Part shown: positions 2,313 to 23,074 of the stretch, piece after piece
Layout of the letters: the number at the start of each line of letters is the position of its first letter
Position numbering within the stretch: the first letter of the stretch is position 1
NCBI GenBank assembly: GCA_000385875.2
Contig: KK365231.1
Location: 8,291 to 32,734, forward strand
From: Anncaliia algerae PRA339
Taxonomy: Eukaryota > Microsporidia > Tubulinosematidae
DNA length: 24,444 bases
Reading direction: 5' to 3'
Position numbers and translations under genes: made by a program
Notes under the pieces: generated by a model
Database searches by the model: none
Told to the model about the DNA's origin: nothing
The model's input: the letters and a program-made list of their open reading frames with translations, nothing else

Positions 2313-2350
2313 TGTTGGATCAGCTATTGATCCATTATTCCTAAAAGGAA

Positions 2351-2404
2351 AATCACCAATCAACAATGGCTCCTTTAGAATTTAACTAAAGGTGATTGGT
2401 GATT
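2351..2404. repeat. Composite hairpin in U3 of element 1 LTR
   Basis: A perfect 12-bp inverted repeat (2351-2362 AATCACCAATCA with 2393-2404) encloses a second perfect 7-bp one (2372-2378 CCTTTAG with 2386-2392). The two stems are continuous on the right arm and separated by a 9-base bulge on the left. The loop is 7 bases. The same structure is unchanged in the 3' LTR (5833-5886), where the pol stop codon TAA lies in its loop. It lies just upstream of the TATA box. Confidence 0.7.
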
Positions 2405-2420
2405 GAAGAGGAACAAAAAG

Positions 2421-2428
2421 TATAAATA
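2421..2428 (+). promoter_or_regulatory. TATA box of element 1 LTR
   Basis: The sequence tataaata is followed 19 bases later by the gag ATG at 2447. A start site 25-30 bases downstream would fall at or after the ATG, so either initiation is unusually close or the message is essentially leaderless. Very short 5' leaders are typical of microsporidia. Confidence 0.55.
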
Positions 2429-2446
2429 GAGTAGAAAGGTGAGAGG

Positions 2447-3589
2447 ATGCCACGTTGGCCCAGGAATGAACAAGTAAATAAATATTCTACTTCTAAAGAT
2501 CCTTCTTCTAGCGGGAAACCACTGAAATCCAACCATAAGAATAGAATCTTATACGATGCAGCTCAAAATCAGCTCAAGGAATCAAATGAGTACTTTGAGA
2601 AAAAAAAATCAAAGGAAGATTCAAAAAGAATAGCTGAGAACACGAGTAATGTGCTGTTTAGAAGAAATATGTCTCTAAAAGAAGTAGAAATAGAGTTGTT
2701 TATGCTGGAATGTGATGAAATGTTTGAAGAAATTCCATTGAGGAATAGAATGCTTATAGTCATTAGGAAAAGCATTATGGAATTAAAAGAAAGTTTTTAC
2801 GATTTGGGTGTTAAGAAAAAACTTCCCGAAAGCTGGGGTGCTTTCAAAAAATGGATGATTGAGTATTGTACTGAAGAGGGTATAGAATCTATAGTGAAAT
2901 ATAGAGATGAGTTGTGGTCTAAATATTTATTGAGACTAAATGCTTGGAAAGTGAATAGAGAGCATAGTGATGAAAAAGTAATGAGTTATTTGAGGAAACA
3001 ATATTTGCCAAAGGACCTGAGAATAATATTTTTGTCACTGGAAATGACTTTGGATATGGCAATCTCTAGGGTTAGAGAATGGGAATCATTTAAAAAAGAT
3101 AATAATGCAAATGATTTTTTGGTAAAAGAAAATAGGAAAAACAAAAAATTTATTGAAAAGAAAGGCTTTCAGGAGATAAAGCAGAAAGTTAAATGCTTTA
3201 AGTGTGATAAAATGGGACACTATAGTAATGAATGTCCAGAAAAATCTAAGATAAATTATGTATCATGTAATAGAAATAGCATAATAGATAGAAGGGAAAT
3301 CATGATTGGAGATAAAAAATTTAGAGCGATTTTTGATACGGGTGCTGCTTGTAATGTCATACACAGATCAGTTTTAAATCAGTTAGGAAATGTCATATGT
3401 CATAAGGATGAAAAACTTTTTAAAAATTTTGATAACTCAGAATGGACTTCTAATTATTATGTAAAATTAGGATATGAATATAAAGGTATAAAATATGTTG
3501 ATCAATTTTGGGTAGTAGAAACTACTGGGGATGAAATTATTTTATCGAATGCAACGGTTAAAAAATTGGAGAAAAAAAAATTCCTATAG
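2447..3589 (+). CDS. Gag-protease polyprotein of element 1
   Basis: This 380-residue ORF starts inside the 5' LTR. Residues 70-230 are a helical Gag core. A CCHC zinc knuckle follows (C250-X2-C253-X4-H258-X4-C263), which binds element RNA. The retroviral-type aspartic protease has its active-site triad at D297-T298-G299, followed by A300. The late hydrophobic protease motif, normally ILG, reads ILS at 366-367. About the first 30 residues are encoded by LTR sequence. The ORF ends at TAG 3587-3589 just after a run of nine A, and pol continues in the -1 frame. The next in-frame Met is residue 75, well past the LTR, so it is a fallback start if transcripts begin downstream of 2447. No internal stops are present. 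Confidence 0.88.
   Translation: MPRWPRNEQVNKYSTSKDPSSSGKPLKSNHKNRILYDAAQNQLKESNEYFEKKKSKEDSKRIAENTSNVLFRRNMSLKEVEIELFMLECDEMFEEIPLRNRMLIVIRKSIMELKESFYDLGVKKKLPESWGAFKKWMIEYCTEEGIESIVKYRDELWSKYLLRLNAWKVNREHSDEKVMSYLRKQYLPKDLRIIFLSLEMTLDMAISRVREWESFKKDNNANDFLVKENRKNKKFIEKKGFQEIKQKVKCFKCDKMGHYSNECPEKSKINYVSCNRNSIIDRREIMIGDKKFRAIFDTGAACNVIHRSVLNQLGNVICHKDEKLFKNFDNSEWTSNYYVKLGYEYKGIKYVDQFWVVETTGDEIILSNATVKKLEKKKFL
2535..2552 (+). promoter_or_regulatory. Hairpin at the primer-binding position, element 1
   Basis: The inverted repeat ATAAGA (2535-2540) and TCTTAT (2547-2552) has a 6-base loop and starts at the last base of the LTR. A standard tRNA primer site would begin TGG here. None is seen, nor is there an obvious complement to the presumed 5' end of the transcript. 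Element 2 has a hairpin at the same place, which suggests a role in priming. The role is inference. Confidence 0.4.
3574..3580 (+). other. Candidate -1 frameshift site between protease and pol
   Basis: In the Gag frame the sequence reads A AAA AAA followed by TTC CTA TAG, a perfect X XXY YYZ slippery heptamer. A -1 slip gives the frame that reads into reverse transcriptase from 3580. A GGGCCT/AGGCCC stem (3616-3621, 3634-3639) lies 35 bases downstream, farther than the usual 5-9 bases, so a classical stimulator is not evident. The alternative is loss of one A from a homopolymer, like the other breaks in this copy. Confidence 0.5.
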
Positions 3590-4200
3590 AATGCAGCATA
3601 GATACCAAAGATAAAGGGCCTATCAGTTGGACAAGGCCCATAAGAAGTTATAAAGATAAAATAGATTTTGATACTTTGGTGCAAAAGTTAGAAAAAAATG
3701 GTGTTATTGAACCAAGTATATCGGCTTGGTTAAATCCTGTGGTTCTAACTAGGAAGAAAAATGGCAACTTGAGATTTTGTGTGGATTTTAGACGCTTAAA
3801 TGACCTGGTTGACTTAGATAGTTTTGAATTGCCTAGATTAAACTAATTGTTTATAACACTTAGAGATATGAAATATTTTAGCTTGATTGATTTAAAAGAT
3901 GGTTATTTCCAAGTGGAAATAAATAAAAGTGATCGTGAAAAAACGGCATTTTTTACAGGAAATAAGTTGATGCAGTTCAAGAAGATGCCTCAGGGATTTA
4001 AAAACAGCCCGGCAGTTTTTCAAAGAGTTATGAGCCATATATTGAAGGATTATATTGGTAAGATTTGCTTGTGTTATATTGACGACATATTGATCTTTGG
4101 GAAAACAAAATGTGAACATGAAAAAAATTTTAAGAAGATAAAAGAGAGATTGGATGAATATGAGTTGGAAGAAATCTCGAAAAAAGAATATTTTGCGTAG
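3580..4200 (+). pseudogene. Reverse transcriptase fingers and palm of element 1, broken
   Basis: The frame read from 3580 encodes the N-terminal reverse transcriptase core: RPIRSYKDKIDF, then LTRKKNGNLRFCVDFRRLN, the primer-template region ending at an in-frame TAA (3844-3846), then FSLIDLKDGYFQVEI and MPQGFKNSPAVFQRVM. The catalytic YIDD box is at 4075-4086. The frame ends at TAG 4198-4200, just after a short T run (4191-4194) where the frame changes by one and the thumb continues. The premature TAA and this shift are single-base events and make this copy non-autonomous unless suppressed. Confidence 0.85.
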
Positions 4201-4202
4201 AG

Positions 4203-5036
4203 AAGATTAAATTTCTAGGATATAGTGTATCTTATAACAAATTGAAACCTATTGTAGAAAGACAACAAGGCATATGTGATTATAAGCCTCCAAATACAAA
4301 GAAAGAGTTACAACGATTTTTAGGAATGATTAACTATGATCGTATGTTTATAAAAAACATAACAGAGAAAATTAGTCCATTATATAAGCTATTGGAGAAG
4401 GATACAAAATTTTGTTGGGACAATAATCATCAAGAAGCTTTTGAACAAATAAAGAATGAATGGTCAAAAAATTTGGAAATAGTTATTCCAGACATGACCG
4501 CTGATTTTTTTCTTGAAGCTGACGCTTCAAATGTAGGTTTAGGGGCTGTACTGAGACAAAATGAGATGCCGGTAGCATATATTTCTAGATCTCTTTGCAA
4601 AGCGGAAAAGAACTATTCAATCACTGAGAAGGAAGTTTTGGCATCTCTTTGGGCCATGGAAAAACTTAAGTTTTATCTGCATGGAAAAAAATTTAAATTG
4701 ATATCTGACCACAAGCCAATAGAAGTAATTAGAAAGAAAGCTGAATTCGGATCACCGAGACTTGTAAGGTGGTTAGAGAGACTAGAGAAATTCGATTTCG
4801 AATGTGTTTATCGAAAAGGTAGTGAAGTTGTGGTCGCTGATGCCTTGAGTCGATCAAGTCCTTCTCTGAAGGAGGGGGAGGAAGATGATAAAATAAATGC
4901 AATAATACCATGTGAAGGAGATGAACAGATATTGAGGGATAGGATTTTGAAGGTACATGTTGACTATGACCATAGAAAAAATATTTTGAATGAATGTTTT
5001 ATTGCTAACATAAAAATAAATTGCGAAACGTTTTAA
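4203..5036 (+). pseudogene. Reverse transcriptase thumb and RNase H of element 1
   Basis: Starting after the frame change, the ORF reads KIKFLGYSVS (end of the reverse transcriptase palm/thumb), the connection with RFLGMINYDRMF, and then RNase H. RNase H carries the first catalytic Asp in EADASNVGLGAVL (codon 4521-4523), TEKEVLASLWAMEKL and LISDHKPIE. It ends in the family motif VADALSRS, which joins RNase H to integrase. The C-terminal part starts the integrase zinc-binding domain with H-X4-H (HVDYDH). Translation stops at 5034-5036, where the frame changes. Confidence 0.86.
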
Positions 5037-5867
5037 AACAATGCAAAACATGTAAGGAAATGGATAAGGAAATAGGGAAAAGCTGTAAGTATATCCAATC
5101 ATTTTCTCCAGGAGAGAGTAGGTATTGATCTTATGGAAATATCAAAGAATGAAAGAATAATAGTCGCAATTGATTACTTTAGCAGAAAAATTTTTGCTAA
5201 AATGGTACGAAGTAAAGAGATGGAAAAAATTGTAAAATTTGTTAAAGAAATACATTCACAATTTCCAATAAAGCAGATCATAAGTGACAACGGTAAAGAA
5301 TTCGTGAATTTTGAGATGAGAAAATTTTGTAATGAAAACAAAATTGAGCACGTATTCGCAGTCCCCTATTACCATCAAAGCAATGGAAGGGTAGAACGTG
5401 CGAATAGGACAATTAGAAGCGGCTTGAGGAGATCCAAAGGATCAACAAAGATAAAGTTAAGTAAAATTATAGAAAATTATAATAATTCCTTTCATAGAGG
5501 AATTGGGATGACTCCAAATGAAGGATGCATTAAAAAGAATTATGGAAAAATTATTGATCATAGTAAAAAATATAAAAAGGAATTTGAAAAGAAGAATATT
5601 AAACAAGAGCAATTTAATATGAACGACACAGTGTTAATACGTAATGAACATCAGCATAGCAAAATGGATAAACAATTTAGTGAGGTAGCAACTATAAAGA
5701 GAAAATTGTATGGTGATGTGTATGAGCTTCAGATGAAAGGTAAGAAGGATATAAGGAGACATGCATCACAGATTAGGAAGCTTAAGGAGGGGGATGTTGG
5801 ATCAGCTATTGATCCATTATTCCCAAAAGGAAAATCACCAATCAACAATGGCTCCTTTAGAATTTAA
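5037..5867 (+). pseudogene. Integrase of element 1, frame-shifted at its start
   Basis: The CC half of the HHCC zinc finger (CKTCKEMDKE, from 5042) is in a different frame from both neighbours. The frame changes again within the short GA repeat at 5111-5119. From there the catalytic core is open: first Asp in GIDLM (5127-5129), second Asp in ISDNGKEF (5286-5288), and Glu in GRVERANR (5394-5396). The last two are separated by 35 residues, giving DD35E. The C-terminal region has an SH3-like fold pattern similar to the GPY/F module but lacks the GPY residues. The reading frame crosses the polypurine tract and 73 bases of the 3' LTR, ending at TAA 5865-5867 in the U3 hairpin loop. Confidence 0.85.
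5784..5794 (+). promoter_or_regulatory. Polypurine tract of element 1
   Basis: AAGGAGGGGGA abuts the 3' LTR. In this class it resists RNase H and primes plus-strand DNA. It is also translated as part of the integrase C-terminus. Confidence 0.85.
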
Positions 5868-6017
5868 CTAAAGGTGATTGGTGATTGAAGAGGAACAAAA
5901 AGTATAAATAGAGTAGAAAGGTGAGAGGATGCCACGTTGGCCCAGGAATGAACAAGTAAATAAATATTCTACTTCTAAAGATTCTTCTTCTAGCGGGAAA
6001 CCACAGAAATCCAACCA
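5795..6017 (+). repeat. 3' LTR of element 1
   Basis: This is the 223-bp copy of 2313-2535 with three substitutions and no indel. One substitution opens a small TTCCT/AGGAA stem present in the left copy (2338-2350). The LTR contains the last codons of pol, a second gag start at 5929 that is closed by a stop at 6022-6024 in flanking DNA, and the poly(A) signal at 5959-5964. Confidence 0.92.
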
Positions 6018-8655: not shown

Positions 8656-8781
8656 ATGTTTTTAAATAAAAGCATTTTAAGGAAACTTAATAGAATTTTA
8701 AATTGTGATAAATCACATAAGGGTTATAATTTAAATTATAACCCTAATGGTATTAATACGGAATTTCAAAGAAGCCCATGA
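8656..8781 (+). CDS. Small hypothetical ORF, 41 residues
   Basis: A basic, Asn/Lys-rich ORF starts at ATG 8656 and ends at TGA 8779-8781, overlapping the next ORF by four bases (ATGA). The frame is open upstream to 8584 but without an earlier ATG. Its middle is encoded by a 26-bp perfect palindrome (8720-8745). I recognise no domain. It may be a real small gene, the front half of one frameshifted gene with the next ORF, or a remnant. Confidence 0.25.
   Translation: MFLNKSILRKLNRILNCDKSHKGYNLNYNPNGINTEFQRSP
8720..8745. repeat. 26-bp perfect palindrome
   Basis: The left arm AGGGTTATAATTT is followed at once by its exact reverse complement, with no spacer. The arms keep GGG/CCC in otherwise AT-only DNA, so this is more than low complexity. 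It could form a cruciform in DNA or a 13-bp stem (minus loop) in RNA. No similar copy was noticed elsewhere in the window. Confidence 0.8.
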
Positions 8782-10983: not shown

Positions 10984-10988
10984 CTTAT
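10984..10988. repeat. Target-site duplication of element 2, left copy
   Basis: CTTAT precedes the LTR and recurs at 14967-14971 directly after the 3' LTR. Because the LTR identity extends two bases into it (10987-10988), the boundary could shift by up to two bases. Confidence 0.75.
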
Positions 10989-11191
10989 TAATAGGATATT
11001 TCCTATTATACTACCCCTTTTTGGAGGGAAATAAAAGTACAAATAGGATAAAAAATAAATAAAAATGGTTAATTACAAATATTCTTTATTAAACAACAAA
11101 AACAGTAAATCTGAACCAATTGGTTCAGATGTAGGTACTAGTTTATACCTACAGTACCTTACAAAGACTAAGGTACAGTGGCCACGCCACA
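10989..11191 (+). repeat. 5' LTR of element 2
   Basis: This 203-bp direct repeat is identical to 14764-14966. It starts TAATAGG instead of TG and ends CACA. Its first 20 bases form a stem (TAATAGGA 10989-10996, TCCTATTA 11001-11008) beginning at the LTR edge. A C-rich then G-rich patch (CCCC at 11014-11017, GGAGGG at 11023-11028) precedes an AAATAAAAG stretch. AATAAA occurs at 11054-11059 and again at 11058-11063, just before the gag ATG at 11065. The last 83 bases are a chain of palindromes that also code for Gag. Confidence 0.9.
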
Positions 11192-11206
11192 TTTTGAATT
11201 CAAAAT
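11109..11206 (+). repeat. Tiled palindrome array in the leader of element 2
   Basis: Five perfect inverted repeats follow one another with gaps of 0-5 bases. They are a 22-bp palindrome (11109-11130), a 7-bp stem GTAGGTA/TACCTAC (11131-11137, 11146-11152), a 7-bp stem GTACCTT/AAGGTAC (11154-11160, 11170-11176), an 8-bp palindrome GTGGCCAC (11178-11185), and a 16-bp palindrome ATTTTGAATTCAAAAT (11191-11206) that begins at the last LTR base. All five are in R-U5 and the primer position, and all lie in the Gag reading frame. In retroelement RNAs such structures serve dimerisation, packaging and priming; that role here is inference. Confidence 0.85.
11191..11206 (+). promoter_or_regulatory. Palindrome at the primer-binding position, element 2
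   Basis: A perfect 16-bp palindrome starts on the terminal A of the LTR, where minus-strand synthesis should be primed. No TGG and no recognisable tRNA 3'-end complement is present. Element 1 has a hairpin at the equivalent place. Confidence 0.4.
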
Positions 11207-11621
11207 GTTATGAAGCAAAGCAGTTATCGGGATATGCATTTGATAAGAATATTAACCATGCTCAAGAGGAAGCCCAGAAGATAATAAATTTTGAATATGA
11301 AGTGCCCAACACCAATCTAAGGTTTACAAAGAGAATCACAATGCTAAATGACCTTTCACATGATTTATTTCAATGGTCAGAAGAATTTCATGATATTGTA
11401 AAATCCTGCAGATATATTAAAGCATATAACTCAAAAAAACAATGCAGAGGGCATTATTACAGAAATATTTAAATTAAAATATCCTGCTCATGAATCTTAC
11501 TATTACAGTAATAAGATGAATAAATTAAAGCAAAAAGATTATTTTTACATAAATGATTACACAATGGCCATTGCAGAAAACTTAAAAAGATATAGCATAT
11601 GTATGACACTTACCAAAAAAA

Positions 11622-12317
11622 GAAAAAGAGAACAAATTTAATGAAATATTTTTTAATGGATTAAGTCTAGAATGCAAAGTGAAATTTAGCGAAGAGGGAA
11701 TGATGACTACTGAGCGGATACAAAAAAGAATCAATGAAGTTGAAAAAATGCTTGAACAAGAACTTAAACCAGAAAACCACAAATATGAGAATCAAAGAAA
11801 TGAATATATAAAAGTTAATGATACGAAAGTAAAATGGTGCAAGTATCATAAGACCTCAAGTCACGCAAACAGTGAATGCATATCACAAAAGAAAAGAGAA
11901 AACAATTATCAGAAAAAAGATGCAAAAAATTTCAACAACAAAAGTAATATAAATGCTTTAAATGAAGTACAAACAGAAAATACAATCATATTGCATGGGA
12001 ACAATCTTAAAACAAGCACCAGTATAGAAGCTTTATGTGATACAGGCTCAAAAAGAAATTTTGTGTCAGATACGTTTTGTTATCAAAATTCATTCAAAAC
12101 ATATAAAATTCCAGAATTTATTGTAACACTGGGAAACAACCAAAAAATCAGATGTAATACCGCCACTAAACAATCCTTTTATTTATTAAATCCAAGAATG
12201 GATCTTAATATTGAATTGGTAGTTTTAAAAAACCTAAGTGCGGACATTATACTAGGAAACAAATTTTTAAAAGAACATAATTGTATTATTAATTTAGTAA
12301 ATGATGAAATATCATAA
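11622..12317 (+). pseudogene. Gag C-terminus and protease of element 2
   Basis: In this frame Gag resumes after the A run at 11615-11621 and is open to TAA 12315-12317. A nucleic-acid-binding knuckle of the CX2HX4HX4C type (WCKYHKTSSHANSEC, first Cys at 11838-11840) replaces the usual CCHC. The aspartic protease has CDTGSKRNFV with the catalytic Asp at 12039-12041, and the late motif DIILGNKF (12243-12266) ends the domain. The frame then changes by -1 before the pol part. All protease hallmarks are kept. Confidence 0.82.
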
Positions 12318-13192
12318 ATAATACTAATTACAAATTTGTTAATAAGGCCGTAAAAGGAGAAATTAATCAGTTAGGAGTAAAACACGACGTAGAGGAAATC
12401 AAAGATAAAGAAAATAGTAAAGAATTAAATAAATTATTGGATGATTATTTGTCAAAATGTAACATTAATTTATCAAAACCGATTCCAGATGTGCTCTTTG
12501 AGATAAAATTAACTAACAATTTTCCAGTAAAATGTAAACCGTATATTATACCTCTCAAAGACAAAGCAAAATTTAAAAAAGAAATTTTTAAGCTTTTAGA
12601 TTCCGGTATACTAGTAAAAAGCATTTCGGAATTCGCATCACCCTGCTTTTTAGATTCAAGGAAACCAAACAAAACTAGACTTTTAATTGATTATAGAAGG
12701 CTAAATGCGAAAACTATAAGCTATGACACACACTTTCCTTCAGTTTTTGAAGAATTAAATAATTTAAATGGATCAAAGTATTTTACCACACTCGATATGA
12801 AACATGGGTATTATCATGTATTGATTAACGAGAATGACAGACATAAAACAGCTATTACCACTGAATTTGGAAAATTTGAATTTACAAGGGTTCCTTTTGG
12901 ACTCATTAATGCACCCAAGTTTTTTAACAATATGATGAGATCAAAATTGTTTCATTTAGATAATGTAAAAGTTTTCGTAGACGATATTATAATATATAAT
13001 CCTAATTTGGATGAGCATATGCAAACAATTGATAAAGTTTTACAAATAATGTTGGATAATAACATATTAATTAATCTTGATAAATGTAGATTTTTACAAA
13101 CAGAGATAGAATATTTGGGTATAATTATTAATGAACATGGATTAAAACCAAAGGTACGAAAAGATGAATATTTTAACTCAGTACCGAGATAA
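12317..13192 (+). pseudogene. Reverse transcriptase of element 2
   Basis: The pol frame reads from 12317 (NNTNYKFVNKAVKGEI...), in -1 relation to the protease frame. It covers the full fingers and palm: RLLIDYRRLNAKTI, YFTTLDMKHGYYHVLI, FTRVPFGLINAPKFFNNMM, catalytic FVDD at 12974-12985, and EYLGIIINEHGLKPK. It has no internal stop and ends at TAA 13190-13192, where the frame moves by -1. The missing base lies before the TAA, so this break is not in a long homopolymer. All catalytic residues are present. Confidence 0.85.
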
Positions 13193-14757
13193 AAACAAAG
13201 AAACAGTTACAAAAGATTTTAGGAACAATAAATTGGTTTAGACCATTTATTCCTAACTTAAGTGTTAAGCTTGCAAAACTATATGATTTGTTGAAAAATA
13301 AAAATCAAAGATTTATTCTGAATGACATGGAAAGACAAACAATTAAAAAAATATGCAAAGAAATCATGAATGCACCTCAACTATATTTTGCAGACCCAAA
13401 CAAACCATACGATTTATATACTGATGCGTCTAATGATGGTTTTGGATCAGTATTGTGCCAAGAAAACAAAATAATAGGATATTATAGCCATAAATTTAAC
13501 CAAAGTCAAAAAAACTATAATGTTATAGAAAAGGAACTTATAGCAATAATACTAAGTTTGAAATTCTTTAGGAAACTAATTTTGGGATGCGATATAACAG
13601 TTCATACAGATAATAAAAACTTAACATTAACAAAAGATAATTATGACAGTAAGGTTGAAAGATGGTTAACAATATGCAATGAATACAATGCACGATTAGT
13701 GCACATTAATGGAAGCGATAATTTAGCAGCGGATTACCTCTCAAGACTGACCAAAATCGAGGAACTCGAAATCACATCTGATTCATGCATAAAAGAAATA
13801 TCTGAAAATCCAACAAGAGATAATCTAAAGAAATTTCATGAAATTACGGGGCACCCAGGAATAAATGCCATGTATCTAACACTTAAAAAGTATTTCCCAC
13901 AGATGAAAAAGATATATAAAATAATTAAAGAAATAATAAAATCATGCGCAAAATGTCAAATGAACAAAACATCAAAATACGGATACGGACATATTTCAGG
14001 AAGAATAATTACAAATGAGGCGCTAGAACATGTATCATCAGATATTTTTGGTCCTTTTCCTTTAAAGAATTATAACACAACAAGGAGAGAAAAGAAAGGT
14101 TACATAGTCAGTTTTACAGACAGGTGCTCAAGATTTAGCAAACTATATTTTACAACAGAAATCACAACAGAAAGTATAATCAAAGGTTTCGAAAAGGTTT
14201 GGGTAAGCAAATTTGGATATCCATCCACACTTCTTACGGACCAAGGTAAATGTTACATAAGTAATGATTTTTTAAACTATTGTTCAAGAAATAAAATCAA
14301 ATCTATAAGAAGTAGTATCTACAATCCTACTGGTAATTCATTGTCAGAGACACTAAATAAGCATATTAATGTAATATTAAGAATTTATAAATATATGGGA
14401 CTTAATAAAATTATTAAATTAATTGAATTACGAAATAACTATTTTATAAATAGAAAAATGAACTGTTCACCAGCTGATGTTTTAAAAGTTGCCAACCCAC
14501 TAAATATCAATAATTTAAGAGTGCCACACAAACCAGTACAAAACAAGAATAATAATAATAAAAACAGAGTTAATCATGCATACAAAGAAGGAGATAAGAT
14601 AATTATGAAAAATATGTCTCCAAAGAAGACAACAGAATTATGGAAAGGTCCATATGGTATCTTACAGGTAAGCAAATGTAGAAACAGGGTGTTGATAAAC
14701 CATAATAAGAAACAACTTTGGATGAATATTAAGAACATTAAACCTTTCTTGGAGTGA
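13193..14757 (+). pseudogene. RNase H-integrase of element 2
   Basis: After the frame change, the sequence encodes the connection (KILGTINWFRPFIPNLS, from about 13216), then RNase H with DASNDGFGSVL (Asp at 13423-13425), EKELIAI and HTDNKNL, ending in AADYLSR. Integrase follows: a zinc finger with H (13837), H (13852), C (13945) and C (13954) in H-X4-H-X30-C-X2-C spacing, then catalytic Asp (14041), Asp (14239) and Glu (14347), the last two 35 residues apart. A GPY/F module (WKGPYGILQV, from 14641) ends the protein. From 13288 this is a clean 489-codon frame ending at TGA 14755-14757, six bases before the 3' LTR. The domain itself looks intact. Confidence 0.87.
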
Positions 14758-14763
14758 GCAAAT
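14751..14763 (+). promoter_or_regulatory. Weak polypurine-like tract of element 2
   Basis: GGAGTGAGCAAAT lies against the 3' LTR and includes the pol stop codon. It is interrupted by pyrimidines, so it is a poor polypurine tract compared with that of element 1. Confidence 0.3.
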
Positions 14764-14966
14764 TAATAGGATATTTCCTATTATACTACCCCTTTTTGGA
14801 GGGAAATAAAAGTACAAATAGGATAAAAAATAAATAAAAATGGTTAATTACAAATATTCTTTATTAAACAACAAAAACAGTAAATCTGAACCAATTGGTT
14901 CAGATGTAGGTACTAGTTTATACCTACAGTACCTTACAAAGACTAAGGTACAGTGGCCACGCCACA
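14764..14966 (+). repeat. 3' LTR of element 2
   Basis: It is identical over all 203 bases to 10989-11191 and includes a second copy of the palindrome chain up to the LTR end. The flanking base pairs that complete the 16-bp palindrome of the 5' side are absent here, so that structure is specific to the 5' leader. Confidence 0.93.
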
Positions 14967-14971
14967 CTTAT
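14967..14971. repeat. Target-site duplication of element 2, right copy
   Basis: CTTAT matches 10984-10988. Confidence 0.75.
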
Positions 14972-15161: not shown

Positions 15162-15785
15162 TTAGAATTCTTCTTCCCTTTTTTCATCAGTTAAAATTAT
15201 TTTACACCATTTTTGTATTAAAAAATTAGCTACTTTTTTTATCTCAGGTATTTCATTAGGATTTAGAGAATAAAAGTGTATAATTTTCCCTATTTGACTG
15301 TTTTTTAAATCTTGCGTTTTTATTTTCATATTAAGCAGTAATTGCAAAAGAGTTTTCCTAATAAGAACGTTAGGAAGTGTTTTATCAGGAAGGGGCTCCA
15401 GCCACATTTTTATGACCGATAAAATATCATTCTCAATTAATGTAGGTTGTAATTTTATATTCACACATGTTTTATACAAATTATCTAGTTGTGATAACTT
15501 ATTGGTTGCAGGTTTATTTTGTTCATTGTTTTCATTGTCTTGAATAACAATGTCTCTCATCTGTGATACGAATTCTTGTGATTTTAAATGATAGTCCATT
15601 TTGTTTTCTTTTGTTTTTAGATTTCTATTTTTATGTATATCATCTTCTGAGGATAATTTTCTCTTTTTTGATTGTTTCTCTTTATTTTTTGTTCTGTTAA
15701 TTTTATCAGTTTGTTCATCAATCTTTTTGCTAAGCATTAAATTTTTCCTATCAATGTTTATTTCATCTTCTGAGCTTTGTTGCAT
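15162..15785 (-). CDS. IWS1: Transcription elongation factor IWS1/Spn1
   Basis: This 207-residue nuclear protein acts with Spt6 on elongating RNA polymerase II. Residues 1-95 are charged and low-complexity with a basic nuclear-localisation-type cluster near 36-43. The TFIIS N-terminal (LW) domain fills about residues 105-205, with the typical core IKMWLEPLPDKTLPNVLIRK (W128) and the later IGKIIHFY and LIQKWCKII (W193). Yeast Spn1 is about twice as long; the shortened tails match microsporidian versions, where little more than the folded domain is kept. The ATG at 15785 is the first in frame. The gene converges with element 2, whose end lies 190 bp beyond the stop codon. No intron is seen. Confidence 0.9.
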   Translation of the reverse strand: MQQSSEDEINIDRKNLMLSKKIDEQTDKINRTKNKEKQSKKRKLSSEDDIHKNRNLKTKENKMDYHLKSQEFVSQMRDIVIQDNENNEQNKPATNKLSQLDNLYKTCVNIKLQPTLIENDILSVIKMWLEPLPDKTLPNVLIRKTLLQLLLNMKIKTQDLKNSQIGKIIHFYSLNPNEIPEIKKVANFLIQKWCKIILTDEKREEEF

Positions 15786-19264: not shown

Positions 19265-22200
19265 ATGACAAGATTGGATAAATTAACAATAAAAGGAATA
19301 AGAAGCTTTTCTCCTGAGACATCAAACACAATTTATTTCTTTAATCCCTTAACCTTGATACTTGGAAGCAATGGAGCAGGGAAAACTACTATAATTGAAA
19401 GTTTAAAGTATATTTGTACAGGAAGTCTTCCTCCAAATTCTAAGAATGGCGCCTCCTTTATTTTTGATCCAAAACTTAATGGCCAATCAGAAACAAAAGC
19501 ACAAATAAAGTTAAAGTTTAAGAATATAAAAAAAGAAAATATAATTTGTTCAAGATCTTTGCAGTTAGCATTAAAAAGAAATAAAACTGAGGTTAGAACA
19601 CTTGAAAACTTAATATGGGTAGAAAATGAGGACAAAAACAGTTCAACAAGTACAAGATGTGCTGAGATTGACAAAGAAATGAGCTATCATTTGGGCGTAA
19701 TTCCTTCATTGATTGAGAATGTAATATTTTGTCATCAAGAGGACAGTAATTGGATATTAGATGATCCTAAGATAGTTAAAAAAAGAATGGATGATATATT
19801 TGCTTCAACAAAATATACAAAAGCCTTAGAAAACTTAAAAATACAAAAGAGAGAAATTTCAGCACAAATTAAACTAAAAAAACAGGAGGTAGAATTTCTT
19901 CACAAGCAAAAATTGCAAAAGGACAAATTAGAACAAATTATTAAAGAAACAAGCGAGAAAGTTTTTAAATTAGAAGAAAAAAGCAGGACGTATAATTTTG
20001 AAATTCTAAAGTGTCAAGAAATAAAAGACGAATTTAAAGCAGAAATTTCTAAACTAGAAGAAAGGGAAAGGATACTTTCTTTTCATAAACATGAATTACA
20101 AAGTTTAGAAAAATATGTAAATGAATTTAACAAACAAATTTTAACGGAAATAGAAATAAGTGAAATAAATAATATAAACTTTATAAAATTGGAAGAAGAT
20201 TTAATTATTAAGGAACATCTTTTAATTCAAATTAATGAAAATCTAACTGTAAAAAGGAAACAAAAAGATGAATCCATATTTAATAAACAAAAAAAACAAA
20301 ATTTAATACAAAATATTTCAAATGCTAGGTATAAAATAATTAATATTCTCAAATCGAAAAATAATTACTTAGAAGATTTCAAAACACAGTGTCTACAGCA
20401 AATGATTGAATATGTGGATGAAAATTATTTAACTTTTATTAATGATTCAATAGATGATAATTCTATGTTTAAGGATGAAAATGTTTCTAATTCTCTTAGA
20501 AATATTTCATTTGTGGAAAATTTTTTAGGCATTTTAGACGAATTTAGAGAATTTAATAAAATTTTGTTAAATTCTTTAAAATTTAAAATAAATGATTATG
20601 AAAAACAACGAGTTGATGAAGAGGGTGCTATCACATCAGAAAAAGAAAAATTATTGAATTTAAACTTTAGGCTTAAATATTTTGAGGACCAATTAAAAGA
20701 TCTAACATGTTTTGATTTTCAAGAGTTAAAAGGAATTACAAAGGAAGGCATACAAGAAGAACTTAAAAAAATAGATTTAGAAGATATCAAAAATGAAATT
20801 CTTAGTTTAGAAACGAGAATTCAACAGGAAGAAAAATCTTTTTATGAAAACTACGAGCTCAACTTGCAACACAAAATGAAAGAAAAAAGAAAAGAAGAAT
20901 TGGAGATAATTTTGGACAAATTAGAGGAAAATTGCCTAAGAAGTTTATTTAGCACATGTGATCTTAGTAATAGAAGGGAAAATAAATATAATTTTGTATT
21001 TATAACTGAAAAGTTTAAATTGGAGAAAATAATAAAAGAACAAAAGGATTTAAACAAATTAAGAGAAGAAGAAAAAATAAAAAATAAGTTCATCCAAATG
21101 GAAAAAAGTAATAAAATCAAAGAACTAAAATCAAATATTAAAGAGAATTATGAAAAAATAAAAGATATAAATAAAAAATACTCATTAAATGATTCTACAG
21201 AAATTTTGGAATTAGAAGAATTCACTGATTTAGAAGGTTGCCTAAAAGAGACTGAAGATTTAATAAATTTTTCAAAAAATTTAAACATAATTTATCAAAA
21301 ATTTAGACAAGAAAGTAACAAAGCAAATGAATGTTCTCTGTGTAAAAAAGGATTTTTAAATGAGGAATTAACAAATTTTAATCAAAGGATTGATAATTTA
21401 GTTAACTTATTATTGAAAAATCTTCAAAAATATGAAGAAAAGAAAGAGAAAATTTTGTGTAATCTGGATATATGTAAAAATAAAAGTAAAAATTTACAGG
21501 AAAGAAATAATATTATTCTATTTTATAATAAATGCATAACTGAATTAAAGGAATTAGTAGCATTTAATTCATTAGTTGATTTTTTAGAGGATGATGAGTT
21601 TCTTAGTGATGATTTTTCTTCTGATGACTCAGTTACCTTAGAATTAGAAGAAAGGTTATCAAGTATTAAGAATAATGAAGTTTACTATTTTGAATATAAT
21701 AAATTAAACGAAGAACTCAACAATAAAACAAATCTTAATTGCGAATCATTAAAAGAAGAAATTATTAAAAATAAAGAGTTATTGGAGAATTATAAAATTA
21801 AATTACAAGAACAAACTTATAAATCAGAAGAATTAAATTTAAAACTTAAAAAAATTATTAAAAAAGAAGAAATAGAATTTAAATTACTTAATTTAAATAA
21901 AAACAGAGACAACTTAAATGAAATAGAAAAAGAAATTAAAATACTTAATAAAAAAATTGATAAATTAACAATAAATAATCAATTAACTATTGATAAAATA
22001 AAGGATATAAGTAAAAAGTATAATTTATTATGGGAGAATTCTGTGAGTATTGAAAATATTCTTGGTAACTTCGTTAATGAACTCAATTCTTTAATAAAAG
22101 AAGTTAATGATAATACTAAATTCATGCATGAAATTAATTCAATAGATTTTGATGAGAAAGAATTTGTAGTACTTGAAGAAAACTATAACAAAATTTTTAA

Positions 22201-23074
22201 TGAATTAGAAAATTATAAGAAATACATTTATGATTTAAGAATTAAAAAAGAATTAGTGAATGATAATATTAAATTAATAGAGAATAAAATAAAAATTAAA
22301 CAATTAAAAATAGAATTACAGGATGAAGAGATTGATAAAATACATTTATTGAGAGAAAAATATGAAAAGATTTGTGACAAACTATTTCAGTTAGAAAACA
22401 CAAAGAGCATGAATATTGGAGAATTAAACCAACTTAAAGAATTTCTAAGTAAACAAACACATGAATTAAATGTATTTTATGAAAATATTGATGATACATT
22501 TATTACAGCTGATGCATATCTTAAAACATTAGAGGTAGCATTGAGTGACATAGACACAGGAATAAAGCATTTAGATAAATCAATTGTTGAATTTCACTCT
22601 TTAAAGATAGAAGAAGTAAATAGATCATTAAAAGCTTTATGGATTAACACATATAAGGGAAATGACATTGACTTAATACAACTTAAGGCCGAAGTAATAG
22701 AAGAAAAAAGTTATAATTATCAACTGATTATGATTAAGAATGGTGTTGAATTGGAAATGAGGAATAAGTCTAGTGCAGGACAAAAGGTCATTTGTTCTAT
22801 TCTATTTAGGTTATCACTTGTGGATGCATTTTCTAAAAATTGTTCATTTATTGCATTAGATGAGCCTACAACTAATTTAGATGAGTACAACATGGAAAGT
22901 TTAGCTAATACTTTGTTAGAAGTAATTGAACAAAAGAAGAATTTATCATTTCAGATAATTATTATTACACATGATGAGAAATTCTTAAGTTTATTAAACA
23001 GAGGTAATTTTGATGAATACTATGAAATTAGTAAAATAGAAGGAAAGAGTATAATTAAGATAAAGAATGCATGA
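19265..23074 (+). CDS. RAD50: DNA double-strand-break repair ATPase RAD50
   Basis: This 1269-residue SMC-like ATPase is the core of the MRE11-RAD50 complex, which tethers and processes broken DNA ends in the nucleus. The N-terminal lobe has Walker A GSNGAGKTT (34-42), followed by the conserved NVIFCHQEDSNWIL (Q-loop). Two long coiled-coil arms rich in Lys, Glu and Leu flank the zinc hook C690-S-L-C693, which joins two molecules. The C-terminal lobe has the signature NKSSAGQKV (1167-1175), Walker B FIALDEPTTNLD with D1199-E1200, and an H-loop region ITHDE. Length is close to the usual 1300. The first ATG in frame was used. All key residues are present and there is no intron. Codon use is AT-biased like its surroundings. 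Confidence 0.96.
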   Translation: MTRLDKLTIKGIRSFSPETSNTIYFFNPLTLILGSNGAGKTTIIESLKYICTGSLPPNSKNGASFIFDPKLNGQSETKAQIKLKFKNIKKENIICSRSLQLALKRNKTEVRTLENLIWVENEDKNSSTSTRCAEIDKEMSYHLGVIPSLIENVIFCHQEDSNWILDDPKIVKKRMDDIFASTKYTKALENLKIQKREISAQIKLKKQEVEFLHKQKLQKDKLEQIIKETSEKVFKLEEKSRTYNFEILKCQEIKDEFKAEISKLEERERILSFHKHELQSLEKYVNEFNKQILTEIEISEINNINFIKLEEDLIIKEHLLIQINENLTVKRKQKDESIFNKQKKQNLIQNISNARYKIINILKSKNNYLEDFKTQCLQQMIEYVDENYLTFINDSIDDNSMFKDENVSNSLRNISFVENFLGILDEFREFNKILLNSLKFKINDYEKQRVDEEGAITSEKEKLLNLNFRLKYFEDQLKDLTCFDFQELKGITKEGIQEELKKIDLEDIKNEILSLETRIQQEEKSFYENYELNLQHKMKEKRKEELEIILDKLEENCLRSLFSTCDLSNRRENKYNFVFITEKFKLEKIIKEQKDLNKLREEEKIKNKFIQMEKSNKIKELKSNIKENYEKIKDINKKYSLNDSTEILELEEFTDLEGCLKETEDLINFSKNLNIIYQKFRQESNKANECSLCKKGFLNEELTNFNQRIDNLVNLLLKNLQKYEEKKEKILCNLDICKNKSKNLQERNNIILFYNKCITELKELVAFNSLVDFLEDDEFLSDDFSSDDSVTLELEERLSSIKNNEVYYFEYNKLNEELNNKTNLNCESLKEEIIKNKELLENYKIKLQEQTYKSEELNLKLKKIIKKEEIEFKLLNLNKNRDNLNEIEKEIKILNKKIDKLTINNQLTIDKIKDISKKYNLLWENSVSIENILGNFVNELNSLIKEVNDNTKFMHEINSIDFDEKEFVVLEENYNKIFNELENYKKYIYDLRIKKELVNDNIKLIENKIKIKQLKIELQDEEIDKIHLLREKYEKICDKLFQLENTKSMNIGELNQLKEFLSKQTHELNVFYENIDDTFITADAYLKTLEVALSDIDTGIKHLDKSIVEFHSLKIEEVNRSLKALWINTYKGNDIDLIQLKAEVIEEKSYNYQLIMIKNGVELEMRNKSSAGQKVICSILFRLSLVDAFSKNCSFIALDEPTTNLDEYNMESLANTLLEVIEQKKNLSFQIIIITHDEKFLSLLNRGNFDEYYEISKIEGKSIIKIKNA

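Follow-up and report, generated by a model that had tools for sequence, protein, structure and literature searches.

A self-complementary candidate primer site at the LTR ends of Ty3/gypsy-like retrotransposons in a microsporidian-like genome

Element A and its surroundings

The sequence analysed here, called the window, is a stretch of 24,444 bases from a single genome, the assembly of which comprises 5.6 Mb in 78 contigs. An LTR pair and profile matches place a Ty3/gypsy-like LTR retrotransposon, element A, at positions 10989–14966 on the plus strand; its features described below are all on that strand. The target-site duplication CTTAT flanks it on the left (10984–10988) and on the right (14967–14971). 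The 5′ LTR (TAATAGG...GCCACA, 203 bp, 10989–11191) is matched by the 3′ LTR (14764–14966) at 203 of 203 positions, and a solo LTR on contig C4 with ATGAG on either side gives the same borders. The 5′ open frame of gag (11065–11472, 135 codons, stop at 11472) had no match in Pfam. Because its start codon (11065) lies inside the LTR, gag codons 1–42 are LTR sequence. Downstream are open frames with a retroviral-type aspartyl protease (PF08284, 11679–12317), a reverse transcriptase (RT; PF00078, 12437–13192), and an RNase H and integrase (PF17917; PF17921 and PF00665; 13288–14757).

Element A thus has the features by which we class it as Ty3/gypsy-like: two LTRs, a short target duplication, and the order protease, RT, RNase H, integrase. 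The succession RT–RNase H–integrase is what we take to be the Ty3/gypsy order and not that of Copia. We conclude that element A is a young Ty3/gypsy-like retrotransposon of a microsporidian-like genome. Despite the identical LTRs, its gag and pol are broken into several frames (11065–14757), unlike two other elements of the genome (C48 and C11), which have frames of more than 1200 aa; either a very young insertion is already broken or the sequence contains errors. A protein search with the RNase H–integrase region of A returned 18 matches, most of them unnamed and one a weak match from shrimp; the named relatives included proteins of Dictyocoela muelleri and Pseudoloma neurophilia.

Elsewhere in the window are a minus-strand frame with a TFIIS/Med26-like domain (15162–15785), about 195 bases past element A, and a Rad50-like ATPase (19265–23074). 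A second LTR element, w1 (2313–6017), has LTRs that are about 99% alike and a gag start (2447) within its LTR.

Consecutive hairpins in the gag leader of element A

The original prediction placed a chain of five perfect palindromes in the leader of this element. The features exist, and all of them lie inside gag codons 15–48 as described, but they consist of three perfect palindromes (22, 8, and 20 bp) and two stem-loops. Hairpin 1 (11109–11130) is the 22-bp palindrome, which as RNA has a 9-bp stem and a 4-base loop. Of the two stems predicted to have 7 bases, hairpin 2 (11131–11152; arms 11131–11137 and 11146–11152) has a 7-bp stem with an 8-base loop, and hairpin 3 (11154–11176; arms 11154–11161 and 11169–11176) has an 8-bp stem with a 7-base loop. 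In the RNA fold the 8-bp palindrome (11178–11185) becomes hairpin 4 at the end of U5 (11178–11190; arms 11178–11182 and 11186–11190), which has a 5-bp stem and a 3-base loop and stops one base short of the LTR end. Hairpin 5 is a palindrome of 20 bp (11189–11208), not of 16 bp as first read. The LTR borders place it across the LTR/internal junction and agree with the earlier assignment of the region to R-U5 and the primer region of an LTR retrotransposon. Its core, TTTTGAATTCAAAA (11192–11205), begins at the first base past the LTR. Because the LTR of A ends at 11191, this is the expected position of a primer site, and we propose the core as a self-complementary site for self-priming.

The RNA from 11105 to 11212 was predicted to fold into these five consecutive hairpins with an energy of −39.9 kcal/mol. 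Dinucleotide shuffles (n = 200) gave −18.7 ± 3.1 kcal/mol (z −6.8). Two controls that preserve the protein gave −15.5 ± 3.6 when drawn according to codon usage (n = 1000, z −6.8) and −22.1 ± 3.7 when synonymous codons were permuted (n = 1000, z −4.7). None of the 200 shuffles, and none of the 1000 sequences in either protein-preserving set, matched A. That the region doubles as coding sequence, as originally predicted, is supported, and it folds better than the controls that preserve the protein. Among the codon-usage samples, 7 of 1000 contained a palindrome of at least 22 bp and 1 of 1000 contained two palindromes of at least 14 bp. Of the 12 perfect palindromes of at least 14 bp listed for the whole window, one that is unrelated exceeds 22 bp. 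The longest in the window is the 26-bp AGGGTTATAATTTAAATTATAACCCT at 8720–8745, about 170 bases past an amino-acid-transporter frame.

Hairpins 1–3 were found only in the lineage of A itself, in which two decayed solo-LTR relatives retain most of the pairs. Over these three sequences the proportion of paired cells was 92.6% for hairpin 1, 81% for hairpin 2, 78% for hairpin 3, and 82% for hairpin 4. For the four hairpins together 84% of cells pair, a value that includes A, which is paired by construction, as compared with 22–34% when the pairing is slid. The two decayed relatives had no cell with both sides changed in hairpins 1–4, and the shuffle control was empty; the compensatory change expected from the original prediction is therefore not shown for the four upstream hairpins, whereas covariation was seen in the arms of the last palindrome (see below). 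The centre of hairpin 1 is not conserved: in the relatives CAAACC and CAAACG replace the CAATTG at the centre of the 22-bp palindrome. Because this central symmetry is gone while 16 of 18 arm cells pair, hairpin 1 fits a plain hairpin, and the idea that the 22-mer dimerises the RNA found no support. The plainest guess is that hairpins 1–3 are a stable scaffold of the leader.

Palindromes at the LTR ends of other elements

From at least 12 RNase H matches, nine LTR elements whose 5′ leader could be read were taken into a survey of the genome (A, C1, C9, C11, C48, C70, C71, C75, and w1). Left out were C5 (unreadable leader), C18 (gag frame or LTR pair not found), and C77 (internal stops and no convincing LTR pair); for C4 and C2 the RT profile was the only match. 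LTR ends were set by 5′/3′ LTR pairs, or by solo LTRs for C70 and C11, and LTR pairs with 5-bp target duplications fix the ends in A, C1, C48, and C71.

Six of the nine elements have a perfect palindrome of 12–14 bp that begins 0 or 1 base past the LTR. Such palindromes begin at 0.16–0.68% of positions around each of the six, which gives P = 4 × 10⁻¹² for six of nine if independence is assumed; the elements are related, and A and C48 share 14 bases. At offset 0 are TTTTGAATTCAAAA in A and C48 and TGATGAATTCATCA in C1; at offset 1 are TCTGAATTCAGA in C71, TTTGAATTCAAA in C70, and ACTGAATTCAGT in C11. The six elements therefore hold five different palindromes. C75 and C9 have a TGG-type site, TGGCGTCAGCCG, and the palindrome is absent there; the LTRs of these two are very short, at about 72–79 bp. 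In w1 an inverted repeat, TAAGA-ATAGAA-TCTTA (5-bp stem, 6-base loop), comes straight after the LTR (2313–2535). Because such stems begin at 2.2% of the surrounding positions, w1 was not counted as support.

Several other observations were made during the survey. In the C11 leader and seven solo LTRs roughly the final 24 bases of U5 (in C11, AAGTAATTTTTCTAAAGTCTATCA) seem by eye to be more conserved than the remaining LTR sequence. A possibly non-LTR element (C72, from 13688 onward) matched the RT profile and left the LTR-type RNase H profile unmatched; it has an 8-base tandem repeat, ATTTTATT, which directly precedes the first long frame and recurs close to the end of the contig. The protein database contained microsporidian relatives, and the gag of C70 has two relatives in Anncaliia algerae, one 96% identical (PRA109) and one 49% identical. 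Together with the named relatives of the RNase H–integrase region of A, they point to a microsporidian host, probably near Anncaliia. A search for relatives in viral contigs gave 24 pattern matches, none of which was confirmed by tblastn.

Covariation was examined in an alignment of eight rows, seven of them distinct. The GAATTC core is identical in all eight rows and its central AATT is invariant. Outside the core the arms are TTT/AAA in A, C48, and C70, GAT/ATC in C1, TCT/AGA in C71, and ACT/AGT in C11. Columns 8/19 hold UA, AU, or GC, and columns 9/18 hold UA, CG, or AU plus a broken type in two decayed relatives on C41, in which one arm pair is broken. Paired cells made up 91.4% as compared with 74.9 ± 4.3 in shuffles, 5 cells were changed on both sides as compared with 1.5, and the covariation score was 0.476 as compared with 0.142 ± 0.065; in each case 0 of 500 shuffles was as high, and kinship of the rows alone can lift covariation scores above shuffles without any structure. 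When the pairing was slid, 57% or less of the cells paired; the +2 slide had 4 doubly changed cells and 5 further pair types, and the +3 slide had 3 and 6, the observed values being 5 and 5. Counted by pair, both sides were changed in 2 pairs, which 149 of 500 shuffles matched, and the number of pair types was matched by 29 of 500. Two of the five arm pairs are invariant, and the outermost pair is G-G in C70 and C11. For the last palindrome, the priming role suggested earlier for the region gains support, in that a self-complementary site is kept in six of nine elements and the arms covary.

In A, C1, C48, and C70 the core falls into the frame AAT TC (Asn-Ser); in C11 and C71 the frame is GAA TTC (Glu-Phe). 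Because two gag reading frames are used, protein conservation fails to explain the core. RT identity ranges from 35 to 60% among the five palindromic elements with a stop-free RT match. In a tree of seven elements, made from an RT alignment that omits C70 (stop codon) and w1 (stop in the match), C71 groups with C11 and C75 with C9, and a single branch divides the five palindromic rows from C75 and C9. A single origin of the palindrome is possible on the basis of these sequences.

Structure beside the palindrome varied among the elements. An exact stem of at least 5 bp ending one base before the LTR end was present in three of nine (A, C70, and C71), at which the background for such stems is 3.8–7.5% per position. 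The hairpins of C70 and C71 differ in their letters from hairpin 4 of A and have the same end point. No exact stem was found within 0–3 bases of the LTR end in C1, C11, C48, w1, C75, or C9, and a U5-end hairpin was rejected as a universal feature. By folding, C48 has a stem of seven pairs, one of them G-U, that ends two bases before the LTR end. Five sequences of the C70/C48 type have two doubly changed pairs in the U5-end stem, and 25 of 500 shuffles were as high; this apparent covariation is suggestive only. The C27b row, in which the stem looks decayed, was omitted from the count. Folding of the stretch from 85 bases ahead of the LTR end to 20 bases past it gave z −7.6 in A, moderate values in C1 (−3.3), C70 (−2.7), and C71 (−2.2), and a weak value in C48 (−1.8). 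The fold was absent in C11 (−0.3), w1, C75, and C9 (−0.7, −0.7, and −1.3), and two stretches at the C11 junction had no structure (z +1.4 and −0.3). The fold also contained a long-range helix that joins the region of the gag start to 11245–11259; its P against shuffles was 0.042 in A and 0.37–0.92 in five others, and it is not claimed.

Candidate primers, a proposed mechanism, and its alternatives

Comparison of the 20 bases past the LTR with 16 tRNAs, made without a chance control, gave no match longer than 7 bases, and the best matches, of 6–7 bases, lay at scattered places. These tRNAs are not a complete set, since 63 of 189 candidates were scored. The site in A begins with TTTTG, not TGG, and its best match to a tRNA 3′ end was 6 of 12 bases among the 16. 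For the TGG elements C75 and C9, the expected tRNA was not found by one strict pattern. A Tf1-like complement between the whole LTR and the next 20 bases reached 5–7 bases in six elements (5 in A), and 29–100% of shuffles did as well. The best GalEa-like downstream copy, 20–400 bases past the LTR, was 9 bases long in A (at +96, P 0.13) and 5–6 bases long in the other five palindromic elements (P 0.83–1.0). Because neither an LTR complement nor a downstream copy exceeded chance, and tRNA matches did not exceed 7 bases, we infer self-priming after a cut at the 3′ edge of the palindrome.

We propose that in these elements a self-complementary primer site, which in A starts at the first post-LTR base, replaces the tRNA-complementary site; we put the probability of this reading at about 0.5. 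The self-pairing would most likely take the form of an RNA dimer, between the two RNA genomes that share a particle. An RNA–RNA duplex is favoured over a hairpin because the central AATT is invariant, and AATT pairs in a duplex and not in a loop. Predicted energies for the site in six elements were −10.6 to −23.0 kcal/mol for the duplex and 0 to −5.6 kcal/mol for the hairpin; the duplex is far stabler in all six, as expected of any palindrome, and the hairpin is weak in most. A primer ending at the LTR border needs a 3′ end complementary to the post-LTR bases, and in the six elements these bases are the 3′ half of the palindrome itself. If the palindrome were cut at its 3′ end, a 3′-OH would come to lie opposite or beside the last LTR base, and reverse transcriptase could then extend the cut end through U5. 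Plus-strand synthesis would copy one arm from the other, so that, by reasoning, the arms would stay complementary in every cycle, which would account for arms that pair perfectly although their letters vary from family to family. Hairpin 4 may keep the junction in place, in the manner of the U5-IR stem of Tf1 and retroviruses. Levin in 1996 reportedly found that RNase H cleaves the self-primer duplex of Tf1, and Lin and Levin in 1998 are said to have likened a Tf1 stem to the retroviral U5-IR stem. As a tentative extension, packaged RNA dimers might prime themselves in trans, the palindrome being both primer and template and staying perfect while its letters drift.

Other explanations have to be weighed against a self-complementary primer site. 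The palindrome could be a dimer-initiation site, with the minus strand primed at or near it by a tRNA fragment or another RNA, an alternative that we consider doubtful although a stable self-duplex is predicted. Short palindromes near the 5′ end can mediate dimerisation of retroelement RNAs (PAL6 of Ty3 and PAL of Ty1), and, in the portions of PMC4974528 and PMC11381356 drawn on here, Ty1 and Ty3 resemble the present elements in having a structured 5′ leader with palindromes and, for Ty1, a primer-binding site (PBS) in the gag frame. By the same portions, unlike here, both use tRNAiMet, and the proposed dimer palindrome of Ty3 is separate from its PBS. A dimer site would not have to start 0–1 base past the LTR, as the palindrome does in six elements, and priming by a tRNA is opposed by the lack of any match above 7 bases between the 20 post-LTR bases and the 16 tRNAs. 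If priming were instead by an internal fragment of a tRNA or of some other host RNA, the palindrome would be a by-product of the stem of that RNA. Internal tRNA primers occur in other LTR elements and are known in Copia; one is stated for FunCo1 in the available part of PMC5445492. The comparison covered just 16 tRNAs, but their best matches were short and scattered, and the differing arms would require several host RNAs with matching palindromes, which makes a host-RNA primer unlikely.

The remaining three accounts are less probable again. Shared ancestry and coding constraint could have kept GAATTC in gag without any role of the RNA: the core is the same in all eight rows, the RT tree is compatible with a single palindrome origin, four elements have Asn-Ser in common, and three of these four have Leu-Asn-Ser-Lys. 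Against this, two elements use the other reading frame and changes in the arms, outside the core, come in pairs; we regard it as very unlikely. The palindrome is symmetric as DNA too and might be bound as DNA by a protein of the host or the element, an account that would leave both the position at the LTR junction and the family-specific arms unexplained and that has little to recommend it. The least probable is self-priming of the Tf1 type, in which the transcript folds back so that its 5′ end pairs with the primer site. According to the sections of PMC10085805 used here, Tf1/sushi elements likewise belong to the Ty3/gypsy class, dispense with a tRNA primer, and have an RNA duplex at the PBS and adjacent duplexes, including a stem beside the PBS of Tf1. 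In those sections Tf1 pairs the 5′ end of its transcript with the PBS, whereas here the site is self-complementary, and the 5–7 bases of LTR complement equalled by 29–100% of shuffles disfavour such a fold-back.

For the self-complementary primer site the closest precedent comes from fungal Copia elements of the GalEa type, in which a palindrome, the Conserved Hairpin Site, lies where the LTR ends (Donnart et al. 2017, PMC5445492, as far as excerpted); its authors knew of no described model that would fit it. Similar repeats in bivalve TRIMs are noted in an excerpt of PMC6934838. By the excerpts of PMC5445492, GalEa elements are alike in lacking an ordinary PBS and in having a short palindrome at the LTR end in many families, the GalEa palindrome including the final A of the LTR. 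They differ in being Copia elements of filamentous ascomycetes with a non-coding site, in having two sequences in 85% of families, and in having a second downstream copy, CHSeq2, 12–41 bases downstream, that forms a hairpin (PMC5445492, same excerpts). In contrast, the elements described here have a Ty3/gypsy-like pol, a microsporidian-like host, a site inside gag, and covarying arms, and no significant second inverse-complementary copy lies 20–400 bases past the LTR. Microsporidian Ty3/gypsy elements of the same host group were described in Anncaliia algerae (Parisot et al. 2014, PMC4202319), for which that study gives 97 LTR families, and a Tubulinosema genome in PMC6675976, both consulted as excerpts; the main text of Parisot et al. 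does not mention a PBS, tRNA, or palindrome. In the titles and abstract openings of open-licence literature, no self-complementary primer site was found for Ty3/gypsy or microsporidian elements.

Apart from Tf1, little is known about how reverse transcription begins in LTR elements that have no tRNA site. Now that a second superfamily has a palindrome in this position, with covarying arms and in two frames, the self-complementary primer site becomes a testable general mechanism. If true, self-priming in trans by RNA dimers would be a third route into reverse transcription, besides tRNA priming and the fold-back of Tf1, and might also account for the GalEa site.
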